A stretch of 64,000 nucleotides of DNA from Blepharisma japonicum (taxonomy: Eukaryota; Ciliophora; Heterotrichea; Heterotrichida; Blepharismidae): NCBI GenBank assembly GCA_949751835.1, contig CATKHK010000037.1, positions 186,001 through 250,000 on the forward strand, in the 5' to 3' direction. Shown here piece by piece: positions 2,147 to 59,778 of this stretch. The translations under genes and the position numbers were made by a program. Positions within the stretch are counted from its first letter, which is position 1. Each line of letters begins with the position of its first letter. Below the pieces are notes generated by a model, which had not been told where the DNA came from, searched no databases, and was given only the letters and a program-made list of their open reading frames with translations.

Positions 2147-2577
2147 GCTTTGTTAAAAATGGAAAGGAATTTCCATCAATTATAAAATTAAAAAAACAGC
2201 AGGAGTTTTAGGATTTATGCATGGTTTTAAATTTTATAACAAATAGATGATAGAATTATTAAGTTAATCAGGTAAAAAGTGTAAAGCCAACTTTAATCTT
2301 AGTCATTATAAGCCCAGGAATTTATTAAAATAAATTGGTTGGCTATAGCAATAATAAGAAACTGTTTTGGGTTTTCCCAAAATTTTAAAGCTATGAGAAG
2401 CACTATTTTGTATTCTCGTACTCTACTAAAGAGTATAAGATTTATAATTTTAAATAGAAAAAGATAATCTTAATATTTAGAATTCTGAATAGCTATTTTC
2501 TCTTATATTCATGAAATTAGACATAAGCTTAAATTATCAATAGCATTTACTTAATTTATAGTGATCCTCATATATAA
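2147..2577. other. Intergenic, no gene seen
   Basis: AT-rich spacer upstream of the four-TM gene and downstream of the RING gene. Stops are dense in all frames even with TGA as sense. I see no RNA gene or repeat. Confidence 0.5.
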
Positions 2578-4143: not shown

Positions 4144-5105
4144 TTGTGCTCGCTTAAGAATTATTGTAGAATTATAAAATGTTTAAGAAAATTAACTAGT
4201 TCTAGATTATATGTTAAAGAGCCTGCCTTCAAATTATCCAAATCAAAATGATAGCTGCAATACAAGCATGCATACGTATTTTCATATATTCAATTTGCAA
4301 AGGTCAATAATTTCTTCATGTTTGGCAAGAATAAATTTATAAAATCTACAAAATTAAAACATGCTTGGCTATTTTAACTATGAAATGGCAAGAAAAGTTA
4401 ACTTCAGATGGATTCTAAAATAAAATACTTATTAATTCTTCTTTAAGCACTTCATTATTTTTCCACTGATAATTTTTCTTAAACAAGTCAGATAGTTTTT
4501 TTGGCGATTGGTTGTTTCAGAAGGTTGCTCTAATGTGAAGTCTGAAACTACATCTTGATTAGTGCTGATTTTTGATAAGATCTGCGATTTGATTAAGAAA
4601 AGAAATTACTACGCTTAGTTAAGTTTGTTAGAGTGCATTAAAATCAGCATGCTGTTGCAACACCCAAAAGCAAGCATTTGTTGATATCTCTGCATTGTAG
4701 AATTTTGATCTAACTAGGACAAAAATATATGAAAATTTTAAATAGGGCAAAATCGTGAATTTGTTTAATCAGACCGATTTTCTCAAGACAGATTTGCACA
4801 AACATCACATTTTATAAATTTCTGTGTCTCTCATAATAGGAGTCAGTTCCTGCCGGAAATTGAATTTCCATTTAAGTTTAGCTAGTTAAAAAATTTTCAC
4901 ATTAAACAATGTCTCGTCCGAACAAAATTTTGCAATGCAAGAGGTAACCAAATTATGTGGATTAGGCAAATTTTTACTTTCCAATAATAAAAAAATAAAA
5001 TAAACAAGAAACGGATAGCAAAGTACATCTGATACAATATGAACAAATTCATACTTTTACAATTCGGAAAACTAGTCAAATCGCTTAGGGATTTTCTTAA
5101 TAAAT
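4144..5105. other. Intergenic, possible short gene relic
   Basis: Nearly 1 kb without a convincing gene. On the minus strand, roughly 4432-4600 reads as about 55 sense codons with gene-like composition (Q/S/T/K mix) ending in TAA, but it has no ATG and no 15-16 nt intron that would supply one. A second short open run with an ATG lies at about 4616-4695. They may be remnants of a lost gene; I cannot assign a family. Confidence 0.3.
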
Positions 5106-24856: not shown

Positions 24857-24998
24857 TTTTTATTTTCATGTAATCTTCATTCTAGCAATTGCAAAGAAAA
24901 TTAGTTTATATAATGTTAAGTGGGAAATATCCGAATTTTTATTTTAGATTTGCTATCCAAATTCTCTAATCAAATTTATAGATTACAAGCTTCTTAAA

Positions 24999-26582: not shown

Positions 26583-26705
26583 ACCAAAATTAAAAATAAT
26601 GTGAATCTTTTATATAATTTATCATTAGATATATTATTTTAACCATGGCTTAAGAGACTAACGGTAAAACAAAGGGGGCTATGAGATACTCCCTGTACTC
26701 GACCG

Positions 26706-27327
26706 TAAGGGCCTCCAGGAGTGGGAAAAACGATAATTACCCAAGCCATCTGCAATGAAATGACTCTACTTGTTTTTGGGTCTCTTACTCTGACATCACT
26801 TCTAAGTTTATTGAAAAGCTTCTCACCATGCTTTTCCAAATGGCTGGAGAAAGCAATCCTTCTATGATTGTTTTCAACGGCATAGACTCATTAATACGCT
26901 GAAAGCGAAACGGGCAAAATCACGATTTGACTGAAAAAGATTTTAATTATCTGGCAGAAATAACGGATGGGTACTCAGGGTCTGATATTAGCATTGTTTG
27001 TAATGAGGCTTTACTAAAATCGGTAAAATGCTTCAGTACACTTCTTATTTTAAGAAAGTGAGAAAGGAAGATGTTGATTATTGGACGCCTTGCAAAGCGT
27101 CAGATCCAGAAGCGATTGAGAGATCTTTAACCAGCATTGAGCCTTCACAGCTTCTACTGAGAAAAGTGAATTTGGATGATTTCAAATCAAGCATCAACAA
27201 TTGTAAGCCAACAGTCCAGCCTAATTTGATAGAGCTTTACCTTAAGTTCTTAAACAAATATGGGCACAGCGAACAAAAGCGAATGATGCTTAGTGAGGAT
27301 AGTCGGCACTTAAGTTATTTTTGCTAA
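26706..27327 (+). pseudogene. Truncated second copy of the AAA ATPase gene
   Basis: Starts abruptly inside the Walker A region (GGGCCTCCAGGAGTGGG) and matches 24019-24853 closely, including the last 100 codons and the downstream flank. The 5' half of the gene is missing. There are small deletions around codons for the Ile-Asp-Ser and Gly-Glu-Ser parts, and a deletion of about 200 bp joins the region after Walker B to GQNHDL. Walker B also has Gly in place of Glu here, so that change predates the duplication. The last 99 codons remain open (27028-27327) but have no promoter or AAA core. Confidence 0.85.
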
Positions 27328-27471
27328 TTTTTATTTTCATGTAATCTCCACTTGAGCAGTTGTAGAGGAAATTAGTTTATTTTAACGTTAAGCAAGAAAT
27401 ATCGGGATTTTTATTTTAAATTGGAATTCCTAGATTATCAAATCAAATTTATAGATTACAAGGTTCTTATA

Positions 27472-29085
27472 ATGGTAAAAAAGGTCGGAAGCTATCAGCT
27501 TGATAGGAAGATCGGCGAAGGAAATTATGGAACTGTATTTATTGGAGTACACTCTGAATCAAAACAAGTAATTGCAGCCAAGTCTGTTCTATTAGGGAAG
27601 CTGAATCCTAAACTAATAAAGCAGATGGAGGCTGAGATACACGTACTTAAGGAGTCAGATTGCCCAAGTATTATTAAGCTTTACGACGTTCTTAAGACTC
27701 AAAACAATATTTATCTCATCATGGAATTTTGTGCAGGAGGAGATCTCGAGCATTATGTCAAAATCCATGGAAGAGTTGCTGAGCCGATTGCCAAAAAATG
27801 GTTGAGTCAACTTGTTGAGGCTTTTATTTATTTACAAGAAAAGAGAATCATGCACAGAGACTTGAAGCTTGCCAACATTTTACTGACCAGTGAAAACGAA
27901 AATGATGCTGAAATTAGAGTGGCAGATTTTGGCTTCGCCAGGATTTTAAATGAGAATTCTCTTGCAATTACTCAACTGGGCACTCCAATGTTTATGGCTC
28001 CTGAGATATTTAACAGTGATGCCTACAGCTTTAAAGCTGATGTATGGAGCCTAGGAGTTCTGTCTTATGAAATTCTACTAGGAGCTCCAGCATTTTTGTG
28101 CAGAACTTTGAATCAATTAAGAAAACTCCAAAGAGAAGAAATAAAATTCCCAGAAAACTCGCCATTGTCAAACGAAGCTAAGGGCTTTATTAGATCAATG
28201 CTTACTTACGACCACAATGCTAGGCCAAGCTTTCAAGAATTAAGGTCACATCCATTTTTCCAAGAAATTTACAATATCCCTCAACCGATTCAATCCCATG
28301 AAATAGCTGCAAGTCCTGAAATACATATGGAAGACCCTCCAAAAGAAGAGATAAAAGAAGAGCCAAAAAGCCCAGAAGCAGATACCACTATCAAAGAAGA
28401 AGATTATGAAATTTTGGAAAAATACGAGGTTGAAGACTCCAGCCCAGAAAGTATTGAAGCTAAAAATCAGCCTCAAAAGGTGGAAGAAGTTAAAATTGAG
28501 CCTCCAAAACCTGCTAATGTCATTGAAAAATATGCTAATGTTATTGAAAAGCCTGCTCCTATTGAAAGACCTCCTCCAAAGCAAGAAAGTGCATCAACAT
28601 TAGTTAGCAAAACCACTGATCTTGACTACCAGGCAAATATCCTCAACAACCTCGTTGAAAATGCCAACAATTACTCACATCAAAATCGGAATATATTAGC
28701 CTTTGCTATAGTCAGATATTGCAAGATAAAATATGAAGAGCTTTTCAACAATTCAGAAAAAATTGCACAGGACTTTTCTTTAACCAGAAGCAGAGATGAA
28801 ATGTTTAGCGAACTTTACGACAACATCCAAATGCAGCTGATCATTGTAAGCGAACAAGCTGAAAATTTTGAGGCTAGAATTAAGCCTTATTCGCTTCCAA
28901 GCTTAATCCCAGAGTTAATTGAAGAAGGATTGATGCTTCTTAACACCAATGAGCAGGCCAAAATCAAACTTTCTATCAGTTTGTTTACAATTGCAGCAGA
29001 AATTGAACCAAATAATACATCCTTGAGTGATTTTGTGAAAAATGCTTATGAAAAGTTCCAAAAAAGCGTCAGAGATCAATATTAA
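27472..29085 (+). CDS. ULK/ATG1-like kinase, copy 2 (catalytic residues kept)
   Basis: 537-residue sister of the gene at 24999-26582, with the same architecture: kinase domain, charged linker, helical C-terminal domain. All catalytic motifs are normal: GEGNYGTVF, IAAK, HRDLKLAN, DFGFARIL and APEIF. The linker has a short extra repeat (ANVIEKYANVIEKPAP). I start it at the ATG at 27472 because that matches MVKKVG of copy 1; the frame is open upstream but without an ATG. ULK kinases start autophagy or act in ciliary/hedgehog pathways; which applies is unknown. Confidence 0.85.
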   Translation: MVKKVGSYQLDRKIGEGNYGTVFIGVHSESKQVIAAKSVLLGKLNPKLIKQMEAEIHVLKESDCPSIIKLYDVLKTQNNIYLIMEFCAGGDLEHYVKIHGRVAEPIAKKWLSQLVEAFIYLQEKRIMHRDLKLANILLTSENENDAEIRVADFGFARILNENSLAITQLGTPMFMAPEIFNSDAYSFKADVWSLGVLSYEILLGAPAFLCRTLNQLRKLQREEIKFPENSPLSNEAKGFIRSMLTYDHNARPSFQELRSHPFFQEIYNIPQPIQSHEIAASPEIHMEDPPKEEIKEEPKSPEADTTIKEEDYEILEKYEVEDSSPESIEAKNQPQKVEEVKIEPPKPANVIEKYANVIEKPAPIERPPPKQESASTLVSKTTDLDYQANILNNLVENANNYSHQNRNILAFAIVRYCKIKYEELFNNSEKIAQDFSLTRSRDEMFSELYDNIQMQLIIVSEQAENFEARIKPYSLPSLIPELIEEGLMLLNTNEQAKIKLSISLFTIAAEIEPNNTSLSDFVKNAYEKFQKSVRDQY

Positions 29086-29430
29086 AAATATCGTAAATCT
29101 TTTATATAATTTATTATTAGATATATTTGTTTTATCATAGCTGAGTAGACTGAATATATTGTTATAAATGATACATTAGATAATATTTTTATGCCTTACA
29201 AAAAATATATTGCATATATTTGTTTAAACTGAAAAATTATACAAATCTAAGATAGATAGTAGACTAATAAGAGGCCATAAAGCCTAGGCCACAGGATGCT
29301 GAATCTAAACACAAAGGTAAAGGTTTAACTGAGAATATTATACGTATTTCAGTTCAATATTTTATATATCTCTAGCCTATTATAGCAGCATTTAATAAAA
29401 TGCTTAAAAATTACATATGACACACATAAA
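29086..29430. other. Intergenic, nothing seen
   Basis: Spacer between two plus-strand genes, AT-rich. The first part is shared with the 3' flank of kinase copy 1; the rest carries no gene I can detect. Confidence 0.45.
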
Positions 29431-41716: not shown

Positions 41717-44662
41717 TTATATTGGGTTATCTCCTGTTGGTTTTATATAACCCACCGAGGTTTGCCGCATAGATTTTTTGAGAGGTGTTTTTGGTAATAC
41801 TTCTTTAAAGCTTCCTTCCACCAGAACTGCCTGCTTTGTAGCTTCAACTAAAAAGCTCAGATCATCTTTTAATTTCTTTGGCAGCAGTTTTTCAGGCGAA
41901 CTTATACACTCTTGAAGAGTCATAAACTTATCAATCCACTCTCCTAATACCTGATGTAATTTTATTACTTCTGTCTGCTTCCTAATAAGCTCTTTTTCAC
42001 AATTTTCCTTTAAATCTGAGAAAAACTTGCTCCACCTGTCTTTTTCAACCCTTTGAACTTTAAAAATATCCTGCTCCAAAGTCTGCAAGATATTTTTATA
42101 GTTGTCAACTTGCTGCTTTTGAAACTCATTTGATTTTTTTAGCTCAAGATTGTACAGTTTTTGAAGCTCCAGGCTGGTTTCCATAGCTTTAAATCTGATA
42201 TTTAACTGAGGATGGTCATGAGGCGCGGTAAAAACTTCGAGACTTAATGTACCTTGTATTGAATTGTCTGCACTATGGTCTTGGATTGGCTTAGGAGTCC
42301 TTGAACTTTTAAATCTGCCTTGTTTTTGTGAAAAAGGCTTTAGGATCAGAGACCGCGGAATGTTAAATTCGACTTTGGGTGCGATTTTTTCAAGGTCTAT
42401 TTGATTTAGAAGCTTTATCATGTGCATGTGGGAAATATGCAGATGGTCAATCATTTTTTCGAGTCCTCTTATTTGTTCTTCTTGACGTCTACAAAGTACT
42501 TTTTTCATCTGATACTTGTGCTCCTGTAGCTCTATTTTCCAATTCAACGCATGGATTGTTTTCATCAGGTTTGCGTTGATTATTCCTGCTTGAATAATTT
42601 GGCTTTTCAAATGGAAAATCGAAATTTCTCTATTAAGCTCTGCGTTCCCTTCTAGAGCTCTTTTGATTTCTGATGAATACATATTTGATAAATTCAGCTG
42701 TTCTGCATCAGTTGTAAGCTCAACTTTTACAGTTTCTAAATTAAAAGCAGTAGTCTGCTCTGAAATAATTTCATTTTCTTCTGTAATGATGGGGACATAA
42801 TCTTTAGGAATGCTAGCATCTGTAAGTTCTTCGAATTCTACAAAGGTTGTGTGAAGCTTATTTTCCTTCATCCTTTTCTGTCTGTCGTCAATATCTTGGA
42901 TTACTTTTGTAATCTTTTTAATTTGGATATGCAAGCTGTCGTTTTGTTCTTTCAGCGCTTTTACTTCACTTGACTCTTTATTTGCTGTGAGAGCTGTTTT
43001 TGCATAAATTTCGTAGTACTCGTGAGAAAGCTGCTCAGCTTTCAGCAGCTTTGTTCTTGATGAAATTAGCTCGGTTTCTAATTTTTTGGTCTTTTCAACG
43101 AGTTCTTGGTTTTCTCTTGACAAGTGTTTGACTTTTTTGTTTAAGCCTGTAGTATCCCTTTCGAATTTTTCGATGATTTTTTGAAAAGTTTCGCCTTCTG
43201 TGGATGGGGAGAGGGAAAACTCTGAATTTGGCTTATCAAATGAGAAAACGAGAGAGTCTGAGTCATAAATGGAATCTGGGGATTTTTTGTCAAATCTTGA
43301 CGAATCAGTTGTTTTGTTGCTTCTTAAGTCTTCTATTGATACAGCCAATCTCATTTCTCCATATTTGTTCATTTGAGAATGAGAATATTTATCAGCTTTT
43401 TTGTTAGCGGGAGTAGAACAAATGGATTTTGAGTCAACTGTAGAATTTAGTTCCCTTTCTCCTCTTAGCAATTGTATTTCTAATTTTGCAGAGTCTAGCT
43501 CTAGCTTCATTTGTTCTATGATCTGCAAATAGCTGTCAATTGAGTTTTTAATGTTGACTTTTACTTTATTTTTTATTGCCTTGGCTCTAACTGCAAAAGA
43601 AAGAGTATTGTAAGTTTCTTCTAAGAATCTAATTGAAGGTGAGCAAGCTACCAGCAAAGTCGTCTTGTAGTTTCCTCCTAAAGACTCTTGTAAAAGCCTT
43701 GTTAGCTTTGAATCCCTATAAGGGATATGATCTGCTTTTGATGACAGAGCATGGATGACATTCCCTAAAGCAGACAATGACAAGTTAATCTTTTTGGTTT
43801 CCTCCAGCTTTGTGCCTGTTACCCCTGACAGGCTAACTTTTTCACTCCCAGCCAAATCCACCAAATTCAATTTTCCTCGTTTTTCACTGTCATTTGGGAG
43901 TTTCTGGCAAACTTCTATAATAAAAATTAAGTGGGACCTAGAAGACGTTTTGTTCATTCTTGTGCTCGCAACTGTTCTAATTTGTTCCCCAAGAGATAGC
44001 AGTTCTAGCATGTCATCTTCTGAGGTAATTGACACTTCTGTAAGCCCCTGGACATAAATTCCTTTGCTTGGGCATTGTTTTATCTTCAAATTCAAAGGCT
44101 GCGGATCCAGTAAGTCTTTTAACGTTTCTTTATAAATTTCAAGCATAGAGCATTTAATAGTGTACTCTATGTCGCCGCCGTCTGACTCTACAGCTTCAAA
44201 AATTTGACTTACCGATCGTGGGATCACTCCACGGGTATCTGTGTCATAAATATTAAGCCCCATCATGGTGTGTGTTTTCCCTGAGCCAGTTTGGCCATAG
44301 GCGAATATTGTACCGTTGTAGCCATTAAGAACATCTTCAATTGTTGGCTTTCCCACGAATTCATAGACTTCTTCTTGAGAAGAATCTGGATCAAAAATGC
44401 GATCCAAAGTGTAGTAATCGATTTCTTTGCCTTTTACGATGCCTACTTGGTTATCGCCTTGAAAAGTGATTGATTCTCGACTTTCTGAAAGTCGCTAAAT
44501 TAAGCTTACATATTCAAAGTCTAAAAGTGGCCGGAACCTGGCAATAACTTTTATGTTACTAGGCTTTGACAAAGCTGAGGCAATACAGGCTTTTTCTCTT
44601 TCTGGAGATGAGCCTAGAGATTTTCGGCTCTGAGAAGGATGAACTTTCAAAGTTTTAGACAT
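41717..44662 (-). CDS. Kinesin, N-terminal motor, kinesin-1-like
   Basis: 976-residue kinesin. A 51-codon first exon (MSKTLKVHPSQSRKS) is joined by a 15-nt intron at 44495-44509 (GTAAGCTTAATTTAG). The motor starts at about residue 36: IKVIARFRPL, P-loop GQTGSGKT, switch I MNKTSSRSH, switch II LVDLAGSEKVS, and YRDSKLTRLLQESLGG. The neck is AKAIKNKVKVN. After about residue 390 comes a long coiled-coil stalk and a short basic tail with TP/SV sites. The motor resembles kinesin-1, but no conventional tail is visible, so the subfamily is uncertain. Its 5' end is copied three times in the array that follows. Confidence 0.9.
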
Positions 44663-44839
44663 TATGTGATAATTAGAATTATCTTATAATTTACGGGTTA
44701 ATTGGGATAACAGTTAATTATCACACAAAGCAAAACCAATTAAAAGGATTTTTAATTAGAAAATTGTGGCTATTCTTTGATTAAAAATATTGATAATTAG
44801 AATATTTATGCTATTACCAATTTACATATTGAAATATTA

Positions 44840-45931
44840 TTAAAATGAAAAATTGTTGGGGTTGATTGAACTTAGATCATTTTCAGGATAGGCAAAAAAT
44901 ACCGTTTGGTTAGGTAAATGTTGCTCTTCAGCTGGCTGAGTGTATTTAAAAGATGGATCTTTTTGCTTAGCATGACTAATTTCTCCTTTTTTAGGGTTGG
45001 AAACTTTTTTATGCTTAACTACTTTTTTCCGCTTTTTTGTATGTGCTTTATTTTCTAAACTAATATTATTTTGCTTACGAGGTATTAGATCTTCATTTTC
45101 AACAGATGGTTCTTTTCTTTCCTCTTCTCCTAAAGGATCATCGAAATTCCCTTTATAAACTGTATCGAATATATTAGGTAGAAAAGATGTTTTGGTTTCG
45201 TCTTTATTTTTATTATCAGTATTTTCAAGAGTAGGTGTTTTATCATCATCTCCTTGTGAACTCATAAATTGAGAAGCAATATTATAAGTTTGCTTCAATG
45301 ATGTTTCATTATATGTATTTATTTCATTTGCTCCGTTTTCATCTTTTTTAGATTTATCATTACTTTTTACAGCTGCATTCAGCAACCATAAAATAATAAA
45401 AGAAAGTATTTCAATCATTGCTCTGACCAAAATGAAGCAGTAGACTGCAAAACAGGTAACTGATAAAGAAGTATTATCTTTGCTAGTGATTTCACTATCG
45501 TCAAGCACTGTAAAAGTGAGGCTTCCTATAATAATCAGGCTAAAATACCCCAAAAACAAAATAATTGGCATTATTTTTGGAATTTTTTTATTTCTCGATG
45601 AATTTTCAGAAGGCTGAATATCATTATTCTTATTTGAAAATTTATTGATAGCGCTTTTAATTATCATCATAAGCAAATCCAGCCCCATAATTGCTGCAGC
45701 TGCTACAAGATAAGATGGATTCAAGCTGTCTTCAAAATCTTGCTCACTTAAAAAAGCTACGACAAGACATGTGATAATCAGAATTAATGTAAAGGTTGGA
45801 ATTATAAACGAGCTGTAATAATTCATCTCTTCAGTATCAATATTATGAATTTTTCCATTGAAATCTTGAGATAGAGGGATTGTCTCACAAGATTTTAATT
45901 CTCTGCCAGAGGTTGGAACTTCATCTTCCAT
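44840..45931 (-). CDS. Four-TM protein, array copy A
   Basis: 363 residues. About 40 polar residues (with IHNIDTEEMNYYSSF) are followed by four TM segments: FTLILIITCLVVAFL, YLVAAAAIMGLDLLMMI, IILFLGYFSLIIIGSLTF and VYCFILVRAMIEILSF. A polar, probably cytosolic tail of about 170 residues is Lys/Asn/Glu-rich and ends NPNNFSF. One member of a family of four here. Function unknown. It lies 177 bp from the kinesin start, on the same strand. The stop is TAA. Confidence 0.75.
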   Translation of the reverse strand: MEDEVPTSGRELKSCETIPLSQDFNGKIHNIDTEEMNYYSSFIIPTFTLILIITCLVVAFLSEQDFEDSLNPSYLVAAAAIMGLDLLMMIIKSAINKFSNKNNDIQPSENSSRNKKIPKIMPIILFLGYFSLIIIGSLTFTVLDDSEITSKDNTSLSVTCFAVYCFILVRAMIEILSFIILWLLNAAVKSNDKSKKDENGANEINTYNETSLKQTYNIASQFMSSQGDDDKTPTLENTDNKNKDETKTSFLPNIFDTVYKGNFDDPLGEEERKEPSVENEDLIPRKQNNISLENKAHTKKRKKVVKHKKVSNPKKGEISHAKQKDPSFKYTQPAEEQHLPNQTVFFAYPENDLSSINPNNFSF

Positions 45932-47184
45932 ATTTATTCTATAATAAATGAATTTTTGTTGATATTAGGAAAAGCTTTGGGATTAAAATATCGGTTTCAG
46001 GTAAAATTTATTAAATTCCATTCTATTCATTCAAAAAAATGATGGAAAATATTAGCATATAAAATAAATAGCTGCAGCCAAGGCAAATTTACATTATATT
46101 ATTAAAAAGTTTAAATAGGATGATTAATTAATTAAGGTTGATTGCTATTTAACGCCAGGCCTGACAAATGTTACTCCAAAAATTCTATATTAAACTAAAT
46201 AAAAATAATATATAAATTGTGCAGAAGAAAGGTTTTAAAATGGAAATGAAGCTGGCATGATTGGAAAAGAAGCAGAAGAAGTGCCCATCTCCTCTTCTAA
46301 TGCTACTTACTCGAGAAAATAAGATGAAAAATACAAAAGAGTGAAGAAAATATTTCACAGACGAAATTTATAAAAGAATAACTTGAAATTACAGAATTCA
46401 GTAGAATAATATTCCTGGATGGATCCTCATCCAAATTTGACTCAGTCAAATAATAAAACTCCAATAGATATATTCAATGAAATCGAATTGTTCCTCTTTA
46501 TGAAGCAGAAACATTGTTTAAACTATATGCATGGCCCAAATGCATTTTATGGAACCAGATAACATTATTCACTAAGATTTTTATATTCATCTAAACCTTT
46601 TGGCTCGTGATAATCACTTTGAAGAGTCAAATAAGTTTGGCATCTTCGAAAAAAATTTGCGAAAGTCATCATCTGTAGAAAAATGATATAAAAATGGATT
46701 ATCAGCATTATCAGACATTCACAAATCATATCTGTAAATATTTAACTTTTTTAGTCTGCTTCAGTCATCTTCTATGTGATCAGTTATATTTCTTCCAATT
46801 CCAAAATATTGATTATGAAAAACAATTGAATGGTGATATTCTGATATTGGGAGCTATTTGTAAGCTACTCATCCATTTGCATAAATTTTCTAAGCCAAAT
46901 ACTTATTTTATAAGAATATCATGAGGGGTTTTCCTGGAAAAAAAACTATTGTTAAATCAAGTATTATTTAAATGATATTTGATTTCTCGATTCGTTTCTG
47001 TTTGATTATAAGAGTTTAGAATTTAGTAAGTAATTAGTCTTTATATTCCAATTTATACAGCTTTATATTTTTCTATAATGGCATGGCTTCAATAATGGAC
47101 TTTCCATGTGATGAGAATATTCCAGGAATCAATTTTTTCAGCTTTTTTCATAACTATAAAACAGTAGGGATTTTTCATGTTAAC
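45932..47184. other. Array spacer A with gene relics
   Basis: Region upstream of copy A up to the next kinesin fragment. Two parts stand out. About 46230-46560 has gene-like codon runs in shifting frames (LEKKQKKCPSPLLMLL, DPHPNLTQSNNKTPIDIF), as if a gene had decayed. About 46725-47184 is nearly repeated at 49370-49819. Part of the first is recognisable again near 53770-53900 (ATTATTCACYAARWTTTTTATATTCAT). No intact gene. Confidence 0.5.
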
Positions 47185-47345
47185 CCTTACATATTCAAGT
47201 CTAAAGCTGCCCACGCCTGGCAATAACTTTTGCTGCTTGTTTTTGGCCAGCATAAGGTACTGCTGGCTTTTCTCATCCTGCAGATGAGCCTAGTGATTTT
47301 CGGCTCTAAGATTGATGAGCTTTTAAAATTTTAACATTATGTGAT
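47185..47345 (-). pseudogene. Decayed copy of kinesin exon 1 (unit B)
   Basis: Matches kinesin 44504-44670 by eye: TTACATATTCAA, GCCTGGCAATAACTTTT, GATGAGCCTAGTGATTTTCGGCTCT and ATTATGTGAT are kept. The rest has substitutions and small indels, and no motor domain follows. The flank toward the next gene also matches the kinesin promoter region. Confidence 0.85.
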
Positions 47346-47516
47346 GGTTAGAATTATCTTATAATTTACAGGTATTTCGGATAGCAGTTAATTATTCAAA
47401 CAAAGCAAAACCAATTAAAAAGATTTTTAATTTGAAGATTTGTGGCTATTTTTTGATAAAAAAATTTGATAATTGAATATTTATGTTTGTTATCAATTTA
47501 TATTTTTGAAATATTA

Positions 47517-48101
47517 TTAAATGGATTGATTGTTGGAGTTGAATGAACTTAAATCACTTTTAGGATTTGCATCAAAAACAGATTTGTTCAATATATAGTC
47601 CTCATCAGCTCTTTTAAAGTATTTAAAAGATAGAGATTCTTGTTCAGCATGATTAATTTCTCCTTTTTCAGCCTTCAAATACTGGCCATTAAGAGGAGAT
47701 TCAGTTTCTACAGCAGTGTATCCTCCAGAATGAATTTGATTTGATTTGAATTTTTCAACAGCTTTTTCAAACTTTCCTACCTTTTTTGACTTCTTTCTAT
47801 GCATTTTGTTTCCTAAGCTAATATTTATTTTCTTGTGTGTTACTAGAACTTCTGTTTGAAAATATGGTTGTTTGCTTTCCTCTATTTCTGAAATATCAAC
47901 TGGTTTGAAATTTCCTTTATTGCGAATATTAGTCAACTCAGGCAGTGTAGATTGTTTAACTTCGTCTTTATTTTGATTATCAGTCCTATCAAGAGTAGGC
48001 GTTTTATATTATTTTGCTTGCGAGGCATTAGATCTTCATGTTCAAAAAATGGCACTTTTCTTTCCTCTGCTCCTATAGGATCATCGTTTGCTTGCGAGGC
48101 A
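47517..48101 (-). pseudogene. Untranslated 3' part of array copy B
   Basis: Continues the copy B gene beyond its early stop. It is open from about 47936 in a frame that matches the C-terminal 140 residues of copy C (TNIRNKGNFKPVDISEIEES, KSVFDANPKSDLSSF). Between lies a join of A-like and C-like sequence. The two are not in one frame with the 5' part. Confidence 0.75.
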
Positions 48102-48235
48102 TTAGACTTCATGTTCAAAAAATGGCACTTTTCTTTCCTCTGCTCCTATAGGATCATCATTTTGCTTGCAAGGCATTAGATCTTCATATTCAAAAAATGG
48201 CACTTTTCTTTCCTCTGCTCCTATAATATCAACGA
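48011..48235 (-). repeat. Three tandem copies of a 75-bp coding repeat
   Basis: Each copy codes about 25 residues (DDPIGAEERKVPFFEHEDL and so on). The middle copy lacks one base (AGACTTC against AGATCTTC), which shifts the frame and ends the protein at 48102. Copy A has one version of this unit only. Confidence 0.85.
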
Positions 48236-49127
48236 AATCCTCTTTATAATCTGTATCGAATATATTAGGTTGAAAAGATTCTTTGGTTTCGCCTTTATTT
48301 TTATTATCAGTATTATCAAAAGTAAGTGCTTTACCATTATCTCCTTGTGAACTCATAAATTGAGAAGTAATATTATAAGTGTCCATCAATGATGCTTCAC
48401 TATTTGGATTTATTTCATTTCTATTTATTTCATATGTATTTATTTCATTTGTATTTATTTCATTTGCATTTATTTCATTTGTAATTATTTCATTTGTAAT
48501 TATTTCATTTGTAATTATTTCATTTGCTCCTTTTTTATCTTTTTTAGATTTATCATTACTTTTTACAGCTGCATTCAGCAACCATAAAATAATAAAAGAA
48601 AGTATTTCAATCATTGCTCTGACTAAAACGAAGCAGTAGACTGCAAAACAAGTAACTGATAAAGAAGAATTATTTTTGCTAGTGATTTCACTATTGTCGA
48701 GCACTGTAAAAGTGAGGCTTCCTATAATAATCAGGCTAAAATACCCCAAAAACAAAATAATTGGCATTATTTTTGGAATTTTTTTATTTCTCGATGAATT
48801 TTCAGAAGGCTGAATATCATTATTCCTATTGGAAAATTTATTGATTACGCTTTTAATTATCATCATAAGCAAATCCAGCCCCATAATTGCTGCAGCTGCT
48901 ATAAGATAAGATGGATTCAAGCTGTCTTCAAAATCTTGCGCACTTAAAAAAGCTACGACAAGACATGTGATAATCAGAATTAATGTAAAGGTTGGAATTA
49001 TAAACGAGCTGTAATAATTCATCTCTTCAGTATCAATATTATGAATTTTTCCATTGAAATCTTGAGATAGAGGGATTGTCTCACAAGATTTTAATTGTCT
49101 ACAAGAGTTAGGAATTTCTTCTTCCAT
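48102..49127 (-). CDS. Four-TM protein, array copy B (mosaic, shortened tail)
   Basis: 341 residues. The first 200 are nearly identical to copy A, including all four TM segments. After that comes the expanded pentapeptide repeat, then the 75-bp repeats, where a one-base loss ends the frame (TAA at 48102). The DNA downstream is C-like, so this gene is a mosaic of A-type and C-type sequence. The membrane part is intact and a shorter protein may still be made. Confidence 0.65.
   Translation of the reverse strand: MEEEIPNSCRQLKSCETIPLSQDFNGKIHNIDTEEMNYYSSFIIPTFTLILIITCLVVAFLSAQDFEDSLNPSYLIAAAAIMGLDLLMMIIKSVINKFSNRNNDIQPSENSSRNKKIPKIMPIILFLGYFSLIIIGSLTFTVLDNSEITSKNNSSLSVTCFAVYCFVLVRAMIEILSFIILWLLNAAVKSNDKSKKDKKGANEIITNEIITNEIITNEINANEINTNEINTYEINRNEINPNSEASLMDTYNITSQFMSSQGDNGKALTFDNTDNKNKGETKESFQPNIFDTDYKEDFVDIIGAEERKVPFFEYEDLMPCKQNDDPIGAEERKVPFFEHEV
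48406..48525 (-). repeat. Eight 15-nt units coding a NEI-pentapeptide repeat
   Basis: Coding strand units give NEIIT, NEIIT, NEIIT, NEINA, NEINT, NEINT, YEINR, NEINP. The other array copies have at most one or two units here, so the expansion is recent and private to copy B. Confidence 0.9.
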
Positions 49128-49819
49128 ATTTATTCTATAATAAATGAATTTTTGTTGATATTAGGAAAAGCTTTGGGATTAAAATATCGGTTTTAGGTAA
49201 AATTTATTAAATTCCAATTTATTCATTCAAAAATGATGGAAAGTATCAGCATAAAATAAAAAAATAGTTGAAGCAAAGCAAATTACATTATATGATTAAA
49301 AAAGTTTACATATAAAAATACACTTATTAAAAAGTAATTAAAGATGTTTTAATGTTTTGTAAGAAAACTATATCTGTAAATATTTAACTTTTTTAGTCTG
49401 CTCCAGTCATCTTCTATGTGATTAGTTATATTCCTTCCAATTCCAAAATGTTGATTATAGAAAGTAATTGAATGGTGATATTCTGATGTTGGGAGTATTT
49501 GCAAGCTACTCATCCATTTGCATAATTTTTCTAAGCCAAATACTAATTTTATAAGTATATCATGAGGGTCTTTCCTGGAAAAAAACTATTGTTAAATCAA
49601 GTATTTTTTAATGATATTTGATTTCTCGATTCATTTTGTTTGATTATAAGAGTTTAGAATTTAGTAAGTAATTAGTCTTTATATTCGAATTTATGCAGCT
49701 CTTTATTTTTCATAATGGCATAACTTCAATAATGGACTTTCCATGTGATGAGAATATTCCAGGAATCAATTTTTTTAGCTTTTTCATAGGTAAAATCAGT
49801 AGGGACTTTTCATGTTAAC
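49128..49819. other. Array spacer B
   Basis: No gene. About 49370-49819 repeats 46725-47184 closely (shared words CAGTCATCTTCTATGTGAT, GAATATTCCAGGAATCAA). It ends GTTAACCCC directly before the kinesin fragment. Confidence 0.6.
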
Positions 49820-49990
49820 CCCTAAATAAGCTTACATTTTCAAAGTCTAAAGTTTCCCAAGCCTGGCAATAACTTTTGCTACTTTTCCTTGGCAGGCATA
49901 AGGCACTGCTGGCTTTTCTCATCCTGCAGATGAGCCTAGTGATTTGCGGGTCTAAGATTGATAAGCTTTTAAAATTTTAACATTATGCGA
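49820..49990 (-). pseudogene. Decayed copy of kinesin exon 1 and intron (unit C)
   Basis: Starts with a version of the kinesin intron (CTAAATAAGCTTAC on the plus strand against CTAAATTAAGCTTAC) and continues through the exon 1 match to ATTATGCGAT. It is broken by changes and followed by no motor. Confidence 0.85.
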
Positions 49991-50161
49991 TGGTTAGAAT
50001 TATCTTATAATTTACAGGTTATTTATTATAGCAGTTATTTATTCAAACAAAGCAAAAACAATTAAAAGGATTTTTAATTCGAAATTGTGGCTATTTTTTG
50101 ATAAAAAAATTTTATAATTGAGTATTTATGTTTATTATCAATTTATATTTTTGAAATATTA

Positions 50162-51340
50162 TTAAATGGATTGATTGTTGGGGTTGAATGAGCTTAAATC
50201 ACTTTTAGGATTTGCATCAAAAACAGATTTGTTCAATATATAGTCCTCATCAGCTCTTTTAAAGTATTTAAAAGATAGAGATTCTTGTCCAGCATGATTA
50301 ATTTCTTCTTCAGCCTTATACTGGCCATTAAGAGGAGATTCAGTTTCTACAGCAGTGTATCCTCCAGAATGAATTTTATTTAATTTGAATTTTTCAACAG
50401 CTTTTTCAAAATTTCCTACCTTTTTTGACTTCTTTCTATGCATTTTGTTTCCTAAGCTGATATTTTTTTGCTTGTGTGACACTAGGACTTCTGTTTTAAA
50501 ATATAGTTCTTTGCTTTCCTCTATTTCTGAAATATCAACTGGTTTGAAATTTCCTTTATTGCGAATATTAGTCAACTCAGGCAGTGTAGATGTTTTAACT
50601 TCGTCTCTATTTTGATTATCAGTATTATCAAAAGTAGGCGTTTTATCTTCATCTCCTTGAGAGCTAAAAAATTGGCAAGAACCATTATAAGCATTTGCAG
50701 GCGATGCTTCAGCATTTGTATTTATTTCAATTGTTCTACTTGTTTCATATTTTCTACTGCTCAAATTACTTTCTACGTTTCTAGTTGCATTAAGCAGCCA
50801 TAAAATGATAAAAGAAAGTATCTCCATCATTGCTCTTACCACAATAAAACAATAGACTGCAAAAAAAGTAACTGATAAAGAAGCGTTGTCTTTGCTAGTA
50901 ATTTCACTATCATTAAACACTGTAAAAGTTAGACTTCCTACAATAATCAGGCTAAAATACCCCAAAAACAAAATAATTAGAATTATTTTTGGAATTGTTT
51001 TGCTTCTCAATGAATTTCCTGAAGGCTCATCATCATTGTTCTGATTGGAAATTTTATTGATAACGCTTTGAAATATCATCATAAGTAAATCCAGCCCCAT
51101 AATTACTGCAGCTGCTACAAGATAAGGTGGAATTAAGCTATCTTCAAAATCTTGCGCACTATAAAGTGCTACGACAAGGCACGAAATAATCAGAATTAAT
51201 GTAAAGGTTGGAATTATAAACGAGCTGTAATAATTCATCTCTTTATCATCAATGTTATGAATTTGTCGATTGAAATCTTGAGATAGAGGGATCTCACGAG
51301 AATTTAATTCTCTGCCAGAGGTTGGAACTTCACTTTCCAT
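50162..51340 (-). CDS. Four-TM protein, array copy C
   Basis: 392 residues, complete. Four TM segments as in copy A, with replacements (ALYSAQDFEDSLIPPYLVAAA, MIFQSVINKISNQNNDDEPS). The tail has TRNVESNLSSRKYE, then KMHRKKSKKVGNFEKAVEKF, and ends NPNNQSI. No TGA in frame; the stop is TAA at 50162. Shares the sequence CATATTTATTCTATAATAAA just upstream of its start with the other copies. Confidence 0.75.
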   Translation of the reverse strand: MESEVPTSGRELNSREIPLSQDFNRQIHNIDDKEMNYYSSFIIPTFTLILIISCLVVALYSAQDFEDSLIPPYLVAAAVIMGLDLLMMIFQSVINKISNQNNDDEPSGNSLRSKTIPKIILIILFLGYFSLIIVGSLTFTVFNDSEITSKDNASLSVTFFAVYCFIVVRAMMEILSFIILWLLNATRNVESNLSSRKYETSRTIEINTNAEASPANAYNGSCQFFSSQGDEDKTPTFDNTDNQNRDEVKTSTLPELTNIRNKGNFKPVDISEIEESKELYFKTEVLVSHKQKNISLGNKMHRKKSKKVGNFEKAVEKFKLNKIHSGGYTAVETESPLNGQYKAEEEINHAGQESLSFKYFKRADEDYILNKSVFDANPKSDLSSFNPNNQSI

Positions 51341-51938
51341 ATTTATTCTATAATAAAAGAATTTTTGTTGATTACCGAAGTATCTCTTGATATTGAAAAG
51401 ATTAAAAATATAAGATTTTTTAGATAAATTTTAATTATTCCACTTTATTTATTCATAAAAATGATGGAATTATCAGCATAATATAAAAATTTAGTCTTAG
51501 GCCAATGCTAAATTATATTATGTGCTTGAAAATTTAGATTATTAATTAAGATTGGTTTGCTATTTAAAATGGAACGCAAAAGGAGGCTCAGCAATTAAAT
51601 TTCATGGAGGCTTTCCTCGAATAATAAAACTGTATTAGTTTAGATAATATTTGTTTACTTGATTCGTTTCTAATTAATTATAATAGTTTAGAATTAAGAA
51701 ATAATTAGTCTTTATATGTGAATTTATTCATCTTTATCTCTTTTTATAATGTCATGGCATGGCGATAATAATAATAATAATCTTTTCAAGTGATTTGTTT
51801 TTCTGGACAAAACCAGGAAAACAGGCATTTTTTTTTCCATGAAGAATTTTTCAAAATCACTGTTCAGGTTTTCTAAAAAATTTATTTCCAGCTTTTTATT
51901 GGTGAAATAAAAAATTAAAAAAACCCCTGGGTTTTAAC
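51341..51938. other. Array spacer C
   Basis: No gene. Shorter than spacers A and B; partly matches them at its start (TTTATTTATTCATAAAAATGATGGAA), then diverges. Has a run of ATA/ATAATA near 51768-51780. Confidence 0.5.
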
Positions 51939-52104
51939 CCTAATTTAGTTTACATATTCAAAGCCTAAAAATGGCCAGAAGCTTCTATGTCTCTAGGCTT
52001 TGACAGCGCTTAGGCTACTCAGGCTTTTTCTTTTTTAGAAATGAGCCTAGCGATTTTCGACTCTGAGGTTGATAAGCTTTCGAAGCTTTTAGACAATCTG
52101 TCAT
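51939..52104 (-). pseudogene. Decayed copy of kinesin exon 1 and intron (unit D)
   Basis: Begins CTAATTTAGTTTAC, a variant of the kinesin intron, then exon 1 matches (CATATTCAAAGCCTAAAAATGGCC, CTAGGCTTTGACA, GATTTTCGACTCTGAG). The position of the kinesin ATG is changed. No motor follows. Confidence 0.85.
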
Positions 52105-52271
52105 AATTAGAATTATCTTATAATTTATAGGTTATTTGGGATAATAGTTAATTTATCTAACAAAGCCAAACCAATTAAAAGGATGATTAGAAAATTGTGG
52201 CTATTCTTTTATTGAAAAAAGTTGATAATTAGAATATTTATCTTATTAATATTTTATTTTTTGAAATATTA

Positions 52272-53423
52272 TTAAATGGATAGATTGTTGGGGTTGATTG
52301 AACTTATATCACTTTCAGAATCCGCATCGAAAACTGTTTTGTTCAATAAATACTCCTCGTCAGCTCTCTTAAAGTATTTAAAAGGCAGAGATTCTTGTTC
52401 AACATGATTAATTTCTTCTTTTTCAAGCTCTTGTTGCAGGCCATTGAGGGGAGTTTCATTTTCAACAACGCTGTATCCTCCAGAAGAAATTTGATATCAT
52501 TTGAGTTTTTCGGTATTTTCTTGCATTTCGTTTTTTAAGCTAATATTATTTTGCTCGGGTTCCACAAGCTCTTCATTTTCAAAATATGACTCTTTGCATT
52601 CCTCTCTTTCTAAAGGATCATCGAAATGCCCTTTATTATCAATATTAAATAGACTAGGTAGAAAAGATTGTTTAGTTTCGTCTTTATTTTGATTATCATC
52701 AGTCTTCTCAAGAATAGGCGTTTTATCTTCATCTCCTTGAGAGCTAAAATTTTGACTAGAACCATCATGAGCATTTTTTGGTGATTCAACAGCATTTGTA
52801 TTTATTTCAATTGTTCCTCTTGTTTCATATTTTCTACTGCTCAAATTACTTTCTACGTTTCTAGTTGCATTTAGTAGCCATAAAATGATAAAAGAAAGCA
52901 TCTCAATCATTGCTCTGACCACAATAAAACAATAGACTGCAAAAAAAGTAACTGATAAAGTGGCATTGTCTTTGCTAGTTATTTCACTGTTGTTAAACAC
53001 TGTAAAAGCTAGACTTCCTACAATAATCAGGCTAGAATATCCCAAAAACAAAATAATTGACATTATTTTTGGAATTTTTTTACTTCTCAATGAATTTCCT
53101 GAAGGCTCATCATCTTTGTTCTGATTGGAAATTTTATTGATAACGCTTTGAAATATCATCATAAACAAATCTAGCCCCATAATTACTGCAGCTGCTATAA
53201 GATAAGGTGGAATTAAGCTATCTTCAAAATCTTGCGCACTATAAAGTGCTACGGCAAGACATGCGATAATCAGGATTAATGTAAAGGTTGGAATTATAAA
53301 CGAACCGTAATAATTCATCTCTTCAGTATCAATATTATGAATTGGTTTATTGAATTCTTGAGATAGAAAATTTGTTTCACGGGTTTTTAATTGTCTACAA
53401 GAGGTGGGAATTTCGTCTTCCAT
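52272..53423 (-). CDS. Four-TM protein, array copy D
   Basis: 383 residues, read through a TGA (Trp) at 52497-52499. Same four-TM core, closest to copy C (DSLIPPYLIAAAVIMGLDLF). The tail combines an A-like part (FDDPLEREECKESYFENEEL) with a C-like end (FKYFKRADEEYLLNKTVFDA, ending NPNNLSI). The outermost and probably oldest unit, as its kinesin fragment and spacer are most diverged. Confidence 0.75.
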
Positions 53424-55053
53424 ATTTATTCTATAATAAATGAAATTTTGTAATTAAAGGAAAGACCCCTAGGATTTTAAAGATCAAAAGAATTAAGGTT
53501 TCTAAATAAATTTAATTAAATTCCATTTTACTCATCCATTTGAACGATGAAACTGCTGAATACTCAGAATAAATCAAAAAAATAGCCTTAGGCCAAGGAA
53601 AATTTAGATTATATTATTGAAAAGTTTAGATAGGGTAAATTTATTAATTAAGATTGGTTTACTCTTAAAATGGAACTAAAAAGGAGATTCAGAAAATAAA
53701 ATTTCTTAACTTTCAATATTTTAAGCCAAAACAAATTGAGTATGCATTAATGCATAGCTTCATTTCTGGAGAATCATTGTATAGTTGTTCACATGTAACC
53801 AATAATATTATTCACCAAATTTTTTATATTCATCAAGAATCTTTTAGCTCATGAAAATTGTTTTGATACCCAATGAATTAACATTTGCGATAAAATTTTG
53901 CAAAACCTATCACCTGCAGAAAAATCCTGATAAAATGGATTATCAGATTTAATGAAAAATACACAAATTGTGGGAAATATAAAGTTCTCCACAGTGGAAC
54001 TGCAATAATAATTCTCAGTGCCTTATGAGAAATTATATCCTAAAGCCATCAAAACCGCTTTATTTCTGTTCATGTCGTCTAGAGCTTGTTTAACTGAAAA
54101 ATCTTTTGGCTAATTAAGAAGATGCATGAATTTATCCTGAAATTACAAATTTATTCCAAAGGGATTACTACCAGTAATCTAGCCAATCTAAAATATTACT
54201 TCTCTTATTTTTCTAAAAAAGCTTATCTTATAGGAAAATTTAGCATCAAGTCAGCTATTTTGACAATTCAATTGTAATGCAACCTTTTGACGTTGAAAAT
54301 AAATTAATTTACACTAACTATCATCATAATTTTTTACAAAATGCTATATTGTTGTATTAGCACAGATAAAGTTAATTTTTACATTATATGCTTGAAAAAT
54401 TGTAAAAATGGTCTTCGTAAATAAGTGTTTTGAAAGACTACCATTTTAAAGGCTTATAATTATAAAAATGCAATGTCAAAGTTTATAATATATGGAAATG
54501 ATGAGCGACACTTGAACTCTTCAATTTGAGACTTTTATAATCTGATACATCTTCTTAATATACTTATTTGTGGTTAAAATAAAATTTGTCAGGATAAATT
54601 AAAACTTGAGCCATTTTAAGAAAAGCTCAAATGCTCCATAAAATGCATGAGCAGAAATTAATTGAGTGCTGAGACAGGCATAATTGCTTTATTCGCTGAA
54701 TCTCAAAAGTGCTCTAGATTTTTTAAAATGTTAGATTTGTAAGAAACTTTCTTAGAACGAATAAAGTATGTAGTAATAAAATAATATTTGGTATATAAGA
54801 TCTCAAAAAGCACAAATAATAAATGAGGAGATTTATTAGATTCCATAAAAGCTAAATTTTAATAAAGTAAAAAATAACTAGGATATGATATTGGTAATTA
54901 AAAATCTTAAAGATTTTCTATAAAATCATGAAGCAAACCCTCAGAAGCCGCCTAATTTAATATTTGAACATTTCTAGTCCCAATTTTTTCAAATAAAACC
55001 GGTCTGGATCTGACATGAAAAAATATTAAATCCAGCATAACTTTGATTTGAAT
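53424..55053. other. 1.6 kb gene-poor region
   Basis: The first 500 bp is the spacer of array unit D (matches near 46000-46180 and 46540-46720). From about 54000 the DNA is AT-rich with stops in all frames; I see no gene, RNA or repeat. Confidence 0.5.
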
Positions 55054-56742
55054 ATGCTACCTCGGCCACTCATATTTGAAATTATCACATATCTAGACAT
55101 CCCAGATCTTCTATCCATTTCTCTTGTTTCTCGAAATTTGAATAAAGCTGCAAACTCACCATGTCTTTGAAAAAGAGAATTTTTTAGATATTGAATTCCA
55201 GGTTTATGTGATAAAATCCCTCTCTTGCTTTGTCAAGATTTCAATACCATTGACTATATCAGTGCAGACTGGAAATCCCTTTGCATTAAAGGTTTACAAC
55301 TTCGTAAAAATTGGTTGAAACTTTCTGGGTTTGCCCTTTCTTCCCATGAAGCACTTTTTCTCTACAATGAGTTTACAAGCAACTTAAAGACCCCGATTAT
55401 ACCTTTTCCAGCATTAAGAAGAGATATACAAAGTTTCCCTACTATTTTGCAAGATTTACTAGGAAATCCAGAAGACCAATTTGAAGGCGATTTTGATTAT
55501 GAAGAATATACCATAGCTTTTGCGAACTGCTTACGAGAAAAACAAGAAGAGCTCTATGCTGAAATTGGAAGTATTTCTGATCTTGATTTATTAACAAGCT
55601 ACAGATGAAATATTGCTAATATTGATTTCCCTGAAGAGCGGTTAAGTATAGAATCTATATCTACCGAATCTTCAGACAATTTGTCTGAGTTTTGCCCTAA
55701 AAAAACGACAGAAAGCATGATTTTGAATTTTTTTGAAACCATTCAAAACACCCTAAAATTTTTTTGTGATGGGACTGCAGGAATTATAGCTGAAAGTGAA
55801 GATCCTGCTTATGAGTATTGTAACAGATGGACTGATTATTGTGCTTCAATGAAGACTATTAATGGACTATTTCTTCCTTTGACAGAAATGATGAATGAAA
55901 TTTATGAATCAAAGTTCCCTGGCAGTCCGAACTTCCCTAGAGTGAACTTAATGAGAATTATGGCGGCTGTTTGAAGAAGACATGTTTTTGAAAAAACAAA
56001 AGAAAAAATCGTGGCTAGCCTAATAACAAATGTGAATAATCAGAGAAAAAAGGTGTATGAAGAACAAAATGCCGATTCAGAAGCTTGTGATCTGATAAAA
56101 AGTCTGATTGAAGCAGTGATGGACATTAGCTTAAATGAGCTTAATGTCTATTTCAAAAACCATTCCCAAGTCAGCTTGGATGGTCCCTATTCCTTTCTTC
56201 ATTCAGAGCTTATTATAGAGTCAAGAGAATATTACAATTCATTAACTTTGCCAGTCAACACCCTTATGATTTATTTTGAAAACGAGCATAATTTCTGTGC
56301 CGCTATATTACCTCAATCTACAGTTTCTCAGCTAAAATTTCTGAAATACAAAAAAATCCAGACAGAAATTTTGAAAGTCTTAACTATTGAGATCATTAAT
56401 TATGCTCCTCAATCAAATCCAATCGAAATAAATAAATTTCCTATCTCTTTATCATCTGGAATAGGAAAATTCCTTTTGCAGCTTGATAACCCATACAAAG
56501 TTGCAGATTTTTTATTAAACTGTGAATCTTCTTATGAAATTCTACAGAAATTTGACGAAATCCAGCAGCTTATAGAAGATAAATCTAAAAGTGAAGAAGA
56601 CGAAATTATTGAAAGGAGAGCAAATATGTTAGGAGTCAGATTTGACGCATCACCCGAGGAAATCATGCTATATTCTTTTTCGAAAGATATTAATTTTACT
56701 CAGATGTCGGGTGTATTAAAAGCTTTTTCAATTATTAATTAG
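55054..56742 (+). CDS. F-box protein with unknown C-terminal domain
   Basis: 562 residues, in one exon read through TGA codons (for example at 55168-55170, 55606-55608 and 55972-55974). N-terminal F-box at residues 1-47: LPRPLIFEIITYLDIPDLL, then SISLVSRNLNKAA and the closing LW. The next 500 residues are mostly helical with no repeats I recognise. An SCF substrate adaptor by analogy; target unknown. It ends at TAG, and the same frame is open from there into the coiled-coil gene 45 bp on. Confidence 0.7.
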
Positions 56743-58011: not shown

Positions 58012-58314
58012 ACTTTATTATATTGGTTTTTATTAATTATTTATAATATTCTTATTTTTCAGCTGTTAAAGCATGGAAAATCTAATAACTTTAGCAGTAA
58101 GCTATTCTGACATCTTAGAAGGATTCGTTTTTTAATAAAATGGAAAAATAAATAAATAAATATCAAAGCGGCCATTTTAAATAAATTAATAGAAAATCTC
58201 ATAAAATTTTTATAGCGTCTATCAATTATTCTTTATAATTTTCACATGTCTGCTAAAAATTATTTTTCAGTTGTTAAAGACAATAATGGAATCTATTTCG
58301 CAATGTAATAAACA
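58012..58314. other. Promoter region, partly duplicated
   Basis: Between the Sel1-like gene (minus) and cyclophilin 1 (plus). The last 130 bp (CATTTTAAATAAATTAATAG, TCTATCAATTATTCTTTATA) recur before cyclophilin 2. Confidence 0.55.
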
Positions 58315-58824
58315 ATGGCAATAAGAGTTTTCTTTGAAATCGAAATTGATAATGAACCATGCGGAAGAATTGTATTTGAACTCTTTAGCAACACTCCACT
58401 TACTTCTGAGAATTTCCGAGCTTTGTGTACTGGAGAAAGAGGCTTAGGTTTAAAAGAGAAGCCGCTACATTATAAAGGCTGCATTTTTCACAAAATAATT
58501 CCTGGGTTTATAATCCAAGGAGGCGATTTTACAGCTGCAATTGGAACTGGAGGCGAAAGTATTTATGGCCCAAAATTCAGTGATGAGAATTTTATCAACC
58601 TTCATAGTGTTCCAGGGATTTTATCTATGGCTAATTTCGGACCAAATACCAACGGATCTCAATTTTTCATCACTACCGTTCCTTGTGAATGGCTAGATGG
58701 AAAATATGTTGTTTTTGGCAGAGTTGTAGAAGGTATGAATGTTGTCAGAGCTATAGAAGAGCAAGGAACACAAAATGGGGATCCTCTATTTAGAGTTGTT
58801 ATCTCTGACTGTGGTCAGCTATAA
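58315..58824 (+). CDS. Cyclophilin, tandem copy 1 (altered active site)
   Basis: 169-residue single-domain cyclophilin (family length about 165). The fold landmarks are intact ([27 protein letters not shown]). Against human CypA, catalytic Arg55 is Lys60, Met61 is Ile66, Ala103 is Phe108 and His126 is Tyr131; Phe60, Gln63, Phe113, Trp121 and Leu122 are kept. Peptidyl-prolyl isomerase activity should be reduced. Copy 2 keeps the standard residues. Confidence 0.9.
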
Positions 58825-59123
58825 ATGCACATTAATATCTAAACCAGCATTTATCAAAGTTCCAATTGCATATTTCCTTACTTAAATCTATAATTTTGTT
58901 CTTGAAAATTCTCGCTTACATACCTGGGCGTTATATTTTATTATAATTATAGATATCAAATATGCCATTTTAAATAAATTAATAGTAGATCTCAATATCT
59001 TAACTTTCACATAAAATTTTATTGCATCTATCAATTATTCTTTATAATTTTCAAATGTCATGCTAAAATTTATTTTTCAATTTTTAAAAACAATAGTGAA
59101 ATCTATCCACAATATAATAAACG

Positions 59124-59633
59124 ATGGCAATAAGAGTTTTCTTTGATATCGCAATTGATAATGAACCATGCGGAAGAATTGTCTTTGAACTCTTTAGCAA
59201 CACTCCACTTACTTCTGAAAATTTCCGAGCTTTATGCACTGGAGAAAGAGGCTTAGGTTTAAAAGAGAAGTCGCTACATTATAAAGGCTGCATTTTTCAC
59301 AGAATAATTCCTGGGTTTATGATTCAAGGAGGCGATTTTACAGCTGCAAATGGAACTGGAGGCGAAAGTATTTATGGCCCAAAATTCAGTGATGAGAATT
59401 TTATCAACCTTCATAGTGCTCCAGGGATTTTATCTATGGCTAATGCCGGACCAAATACCAACGGATCTCAATTTTTCATTACTACAGTTCCTTGTGAATG
59501 GTTAAATGGGAAACATGTTGTTTTTGGCAGAGTTGTAGAAGGTATGAATGTTGTCAGAGCTATAGAAGAGCAAGGAACCCAAAGTGGGCGACCTCAATTT
59601 AGAGTTGTTATCTCTGACTGTGGTCAGCTATAA
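59124..59633 (+). CDS. Cyclophilin, tandem copy 2 (standard active site)
   Basis: 169 residues, about 90% identical to copy 1. Active-site residues match Cyp[33 protein letters not shown] (Asp to Asn next to Leu is the only change). Expected to be an active, cytosolic peptidyl-prolyl isomerase. No signal peptide. Confidence 0.92.
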
Positions 59634-59778
59634 ATGCACATTAATATCTAAACCAGCATTTATCAAAGTTCCAATTGCATATTTCCTTACTTAAATCTAT
59701 AATTTGCCTCTTGAAAATTCTCGCTTACATACCTGGGCGTGATATTTTATTAAACTATATTTAATCTCAACCTTATAA

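Follow-up and report, generated by a model that had tools for sequence, protein, structure and literature searches.

Four four-TM genes beside an intact kinesin gene make up an array of units, A to D, in direct orientation and head to tail, in which a tandemly copied four-TM gene has carried along the broken front end of the kinesin gene as decaying baggage; it is an unusually legible but ordinary record of duplication. Tandem duplications can carry a truncated neighbour as a passenger pseudogene, and the array is another case of this known kind. The history proposed below as a whole, comprising a founding duplication at the edge of the kinesin intron, passive copying of its junction, a later chimeric unit B and decaying kinesin stubs, is considered highly probable. 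The window, that is, the whole stretch of 64,000 nucleotides that was analysed, corresponds to C37:186001-250000 in a genome of 45.2 Mb and 224 contigs, and the features of the array within it are as follows.

41717..44494, minus strand: intact parent kinesin gene from exon 2 on, with the motor and coiled-coil region (Pfam Kinesin, E 2.7e-107)
44495..44509, minus strand: predicted kinesin intron, 15 nt, whose 3′ splice site is the edge of the copies (reading frames; paralog on contig C91)
44510..44662, minus strand: kinesin exon 1, source of the stubs (reading frame, alignment)
44840..45931, minus strand: four-TM gene A
45063..48017, no strand: left copy of the later tandem duplication that would have made unit B
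46149..46476, plus strand: fragment of a small unrelated gene family in the A spacer (relatives on contigs C112, C5 and C9)
46728..47185, no strand: spacer X, left of stub B (alignment)
47186..47337, minus strand: exon-1 stub B, 5 nt of intron kept, frame broken
48018..50652, no strand: right copy of the later tandem duplication, joined to the left copy at about 48017/48018
48102..49127, minus strand: four-TM gene B, with an A-like TM core and a truncated chimeric tail
49370..49821, no strand: spacer X, left of stub C (alignment)
49822..49983, minus strand: exon-1 stub C, with a 14-nt intron remnant at 49822-49835
50162..51340, minus strand: four-TM gene C
51602..51939, no strand: spacer X (diverged), left of stub D (alignment)
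51940..52096, minus strand: exon-1 stub D, with a 14-nt intron remnant at 51940-51953, start codon lost and a 10-nt deletion
52272..53423, minus strand: four-TM gene D, which needs TGA as a sense codon
53424..53703, no strand: 5′ flank of gene D; unit homology stops at about 53703, with no X beyond

The intact kinesin gene begins at 44662 on the minus strand, has its motor domain in frame from 44494 and finds its best PDB sequence match in kinesin heavy chain. Its 15-nt intron is predicted from the reading frames, and the frame of a kinesin paralog on contig C91 is interrupted at the identical position by 15 nt of the form GT..AG (GTAATCCCCAAATAG), so that the intron probably predates the array. 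Degraded copies of exon 1 stand at the start of the extra units, as the first-pass annotation had claimed: the local alignment scores of 156 (B), 163 (C) and 172 (D) lie above every shuffle (maxima of 42, 44 and 37, with none of 200 shuffles reaching the score in any case). BLAST matches that run from exon 1 through its upstream flank into the end of the four-TM gene had 79.4% identity for B (E 4e-110) and 78.3% for C (E 1e-104), and a single 76.5% match spans nearly the whole of unit D. That annotation had counted four units, each led by a kinesin copy, which holds for B, C and D but not for A, where the kinesin sequence is the intact gene itself; there are thus three copies and their source rather than four copies. 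Beyond the last unit, two exon-1 queries for a fifth stub to the right of D scored at chance (equalled by 69 and 160 of 200 shuffles).

The left edges of the units coincide with the kinesin intron, as had been noted. Homology in C and D ends at the same base, exactly at the 3′ splice site, and that in B ends within about 10 nt of it, stub B having lost about 10 further nucleotides relative to C and D so that GTAAG alone remains before the spacer. Two of the copies were said to include the 15-nt intron; C and D do carry an intron remnant, although it is 14 nt long. Exon 2 was undetectable to the left of all three junctions, where its scores of 29, 26 and 33 were reached by 69, 143 and 22 of 200 shuffles, yet exon 1 is 75-80% preserved in the stubs. 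In stubs B and C the frame stops after four codons, and the broken frames of all three mark them as passenger copies without coding constraint; the kinesin stubs are non-coding passengers in decay, and the four-TM genes are retained. An increase in decay from A to D, which had also been proposed, is contradicted by exon-1 identities to A of 77.0% for B, 74.7% for C and 80.3% for D, the D stub being the best kept and the C stub the worst. Branch lengths over the intron and exon 1 (0.039 for A, 0.273 for C and 0.194 for D; the C and D stubs were trimmed by 4 nt at the intron end for the branch and identity comparisons) are those expected of one constrained gene and free-running copies. The array is unlikely to be an assembly artefact, judging from segments that differ by 3.6% to 34% between units and carry private indels.

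On the other, non-kinesin side of each junction lies a spacer, X. The copies of X between A and B and between B and C are 93.8% identical over 451 columns. That between C and D is more diverged (68.4% over 253 columns, rising to 82.8% in one block of 128 columns) and is nevertheless recognizable, with a local score of 175 against the A|B copy where the shuffle maximum was 65. Both sides of the join are therefore common to all three junctions, which indicates that one join was copied, and repeated breakage, one of two explanations first offered, is unneeded; the other, a single junction carried along, agrees with the homology of X at all three. Outside the array no match to X was found in the genome by a search that skips simple repeats and very common words. 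The gene-family fragment at 46149-46476 is missing from the B spacer. A separate stretch of the A spacer, 46549-46726, resembles 53793-53968 as well as places on contigs C77 and C33.

Unit B is chimeric: it combines parts of A and C, and changes from C-like to A-like sequence at about 48,020. The part at 46728-48024 (X, stub and tail) is 91.7% identical to the C side, and that at 48503-49312 (TM core and 5′ flank) is 94.5% identical to unit A. Quartet sites divide accordingly: the first five comparison windows, from stub to tail, gave 45 sites for AD|BC, 4 for AB|CD and 0 for AC|BD, and the nine that run on from there through the remaining tail as far as the 5′ flank gave 85 for AB|CD and 8 each for AC|BD and AD|BC (pairs with fewer than 25 aligned columns in a comparison window were given no identity). 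Segments 45063-48017 and 48018-50652 align in three large collinear blocks of 92.0, 94.5 and 86.8% identity, and a tandem duplication of 45063-48017 produces the C-like and A-like pattern seen in unit B. A and B are also the youngest pair, with a dS of 0.058 compared with 0.222 for C-D, 0.268 for A-C and 0.309 for A-D. The join left gene B with a truncated tail, a block of about 73 bp present three times and a remnant of C-type tail in another frame segment; the tail holds, at 48006-48234 and 48402-48536, that block and a run of 15-nt repeats (NEINT-like).

The way in which unit B was joined bears on the possibility that homologous unequal crossing over made every copy after the first, B included. 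The units are long, similar and in the same orientation, and such exchange is possible for C and D. At the B join, however, position 50652 of C is linked to 45063 of A with a 2-bp overlap (AT), as read from the alignments, although A 45063 itself aligns with C 50460, and C 50652 with A 45249. The join is thus out of register by 186-192 bp, which with so short an overlap does not correspond to homologous crossing over, and the sequence of unit B fits better with a tandem duplication of the microhomology or end-joining type. Crossing over as the source of all later copies is accordingly judged very unlikely, and of the unequal exchange first suggested as the vehicle of the junction, the carriage of one junction stands but homologous crossing over fails for B.

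The TM cores are open in all four genes, with dN/dS of 0.33-0.55 over the six pairs, below 1. Constraint is not clear in the tails (dN/dS 0.59-2.19, the values for B being raised by the frameshift at the end of its tail). At least one four-TM paralog was found on contig C70 and at least two in tandem on contig C90. None of six four-TM proteins (A-D, that on C70 and one of those on C90) matched Pfam above the curated cut-off, the gene C protein had no PDB sequence relatives at E up to 1, and an AlphaFold model built on an alignment of four rows was of low quality (mean pLDDT 37.8).

Retention of the kinesin flanks for a function of their own, as putative promoters of the downstream four-TM gene or 3′ processing signals of the upstream one, would offer another reason for their presence in each unit. 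Flank branches of 0.165 (C) and 0.095 (D) are shorter than the 0.273 and 0.194 of the exon, and 21 nt beside the kinesin start (within 44663-44707) are invariant in all four units, a result obtained in 15 of 2000 shuffles. The part of the flank by the start is, however, no better kept than the remaining flank (Fisher p 0.84 for C-D and 0.28 for B-D; against exon 1 the values are 0.09 and 0.013, respectively), and the four-TM genes also come with 5′ flanks of their own, which are homologous across the four units. As signs of a retained promoter these features are faint and unspecific, and this reading is regarded as very unlikely. Since each stub lies upstream of the next four-TM gene on the same strand, its putative promoter might drive that gene; the stub flanks might then be transplanted promoters by which A, B and C were rewired to kinesin-like expression while D kept the ancestral upstream region, a proposal to which very little credence is given.

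Passenger-type duplication, to which the array is assigned above, recurs, with a second case in the window and another on contig C90. Self-comparison of the window at E up to 1e-10, with the array added, gave three tandem duplications, two of which carry a truncated neighbour (the array and that at 24-29 kb). In the latter, 24017-26659 and 26706-29151 form an 89% tandem duplication, the copies separated by a 46-bp stretch, of a protein-kinase gene (Pkinase E 1.7e-67; second copy 3.2e-68) and part of an upstream AAA-ATPase gene (Pfam AAA E 1.1e-36), inside which the unit starts. The AAA-ATPase passenger copy is missing about 207 bp (parent 24220-24439) and has frameshifts. The third, a cyclophilin pair at 58156-58951 and 58949-59759, is 91% identical and head to tail, with no filler and no passenger. 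Within C90:69500-78000, internal positions 1743-3450 and 3783-5486 form a tandem duplication of 1.7 kb, 93% identical, in which a four-TM paralog was copied together with the 3′ part of a 3-hydroxyacyl-CoA dehydrogenase gene; being found through the gene family, it is not an unbiased sample. Between its copies lies a 332-bp stretch that is not repeated beyond the second one and matches nothing else in the genome. Approximately 68% of the window lies in frames of at least 200 aa, an upper estimate because antisense frames were counted, so that a random break will often fall in a gene.

These duplications also bear on the idea of a fragile site, in which the edge of the kinesin intron would break again and again, every unit start being a separate break at that point. 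Unit starts at the same base in C and D, and within about 10 nt in B, are what such a site would give, but X on the far side of the break is common to all three, the newest duplication broke elsewhere, inside the four-TM tails, and the breaks of the 24-29 kb and C90 duplications fall in uninterrupted frames rather than introns; a fragile site is accordingly held to be highly improbable. Least probable of all is a healed chromosome end, whereby the intron edge gained a telomere that afterwards fused with X: the GG after the intron remnant gives TTAGGGTTAA, which the D junction shows exactly and the B junction with one mismatch, and internal telomere addition is described for Blepharisma (PMC9942806), but the telomere unit in this genome is CCCTAACA rather than a six-base one, no two-repeat match occurs in the window at up to 2 mismatches, and the short motif is found 7 times where 6.1 are expected. 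As a candidate telomere scar the junction motif was rejected, its frequency being at chance despite the exact match at D.

The preferred history, passive copying of a single founding junction, would begin with a tandem duplication in a Blepharisma-like ancestor, with one break at the 3′ edge of the kinesin intron and the other past the four-TM gene; the first-pass view that the array was founded by a segment starting at the kinesin intron, with exon 1, the upstream flank and the neighbouring four-TM gene, is supported. The truncated kinesin 5′ end (upstream flank, exon 1 and intron) would have become the edge of the new copy, with X between the copies, and as units C and D were added this one junction would have been multiplied passively. 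The chimeric unit B would have come later, from a separate tandem duplication of some 2.9 kb whose breakpoints lie in the tails of genes A and C and whose join has a 2-bp overlap; the junction would thereby have been copied once more. These events would have taken place in the germline, and the order given for A, C and D is provisional; units C and D, too diverged for their history to be read, show no readable mosaic join. All units share the splice-site edge because it arose a single time; that it falls exactly on the intron edge, for which chance is roughly 6 in 2,950 positions (our own post hoc estimate, counting ±1 base of either intron edge), looks like a one-off.

A plain tandem duplication would be expected to place X again after the last unit, and it was not found there: in 53650-55050 none of the four X queries did better than chance (their scores were reached by 75 to 142 of 200 shuffles). 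Its absence has to be put down to loss, divergence or captured filler. X may be extra DNA captured at the founding join; such capture fits all three passenger-type joins examined, with later loss after the last copy as the alternative.

As in passenger-pseudogene duplications generally, a partial gene at the unit edge decays near its intact parent and a complete gene is kept. The array differs in that the stub is present three times and ends exactly at a 3′ splice site, and in that X is missing after the last unit. Segmental duplications in yeast attributed to microhomology-type template switching are direct tandem copies whose joins show little homology and create chimeric frames (PMC2518615), and the array resembles them in these respects. 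The yeast joins described there have 5 to 10 bp of microhomology or microsatellites, compared with 2 bp at the B join, and the array has an extra stretch at its founding join that those duplications do not (PMC2518615); a shared mechanism would be a possibility. A literature search pairing Blepharisma with tandem duplication found nothing. The array offers a clear worked example of how a tandem family grows in a gene-dense ciliate genome: one illegitimate join fixes the stub of a neighbour, and later joins broken elsewhere copy it along, leaving a mark of shared origin and a neutral yardstick next to a constrained parent. On this view, a partial neighbour looks like something that duplication is expected to leave behind rather than a sign of targeted breakage.

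The genomic setting has the traits of a Blepharisma-like heterotrich somatic genome: a TGA sense codon, CCCTAACA telomeres and 15-nt introns. One TGA must be read through for gene D to be open, and four TGA codons fall within the frame of the F-box gene at 55030-56742. A 24-mer of three CCCTAACA units had 77 forward and 91 reverse matches in the genome, its reversed control having 0; among the matches listed, those that could be placed sit at contig ends (e.g., C4 and C5), and those on C36, C47, C69, C78, C80 and C89 start in the first bases. The somatic genome of Blepharisma stoltei reads UGA as tryptophan, has CCCTAACA telomere repeats and introns mostly of 15 and 16 bp, and is gene-dense, 66% AT and 41 Mb in size (PMC9942806); the assignment of TGA to tryptophan rests on that source. 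The code, telomeres, 15-nt introns and AT-richness (32.6% GC in the window) are shared and fit that published genome, the difference being 45.2 Mb and 224 contigs here compared with 41 Mb (PMC9942806). No RNA families or tRNAs were found in the window. To the right of the array, the frame at 55057-56739 matches both the Pfam F-box (E 1.8e-9) and cullin (E 6.6e-11) families. To our knowledge, an F-box and a cullin in one frame is an unusual pairing. The 5′ end of this frame has a short DNA relative on contig C2.
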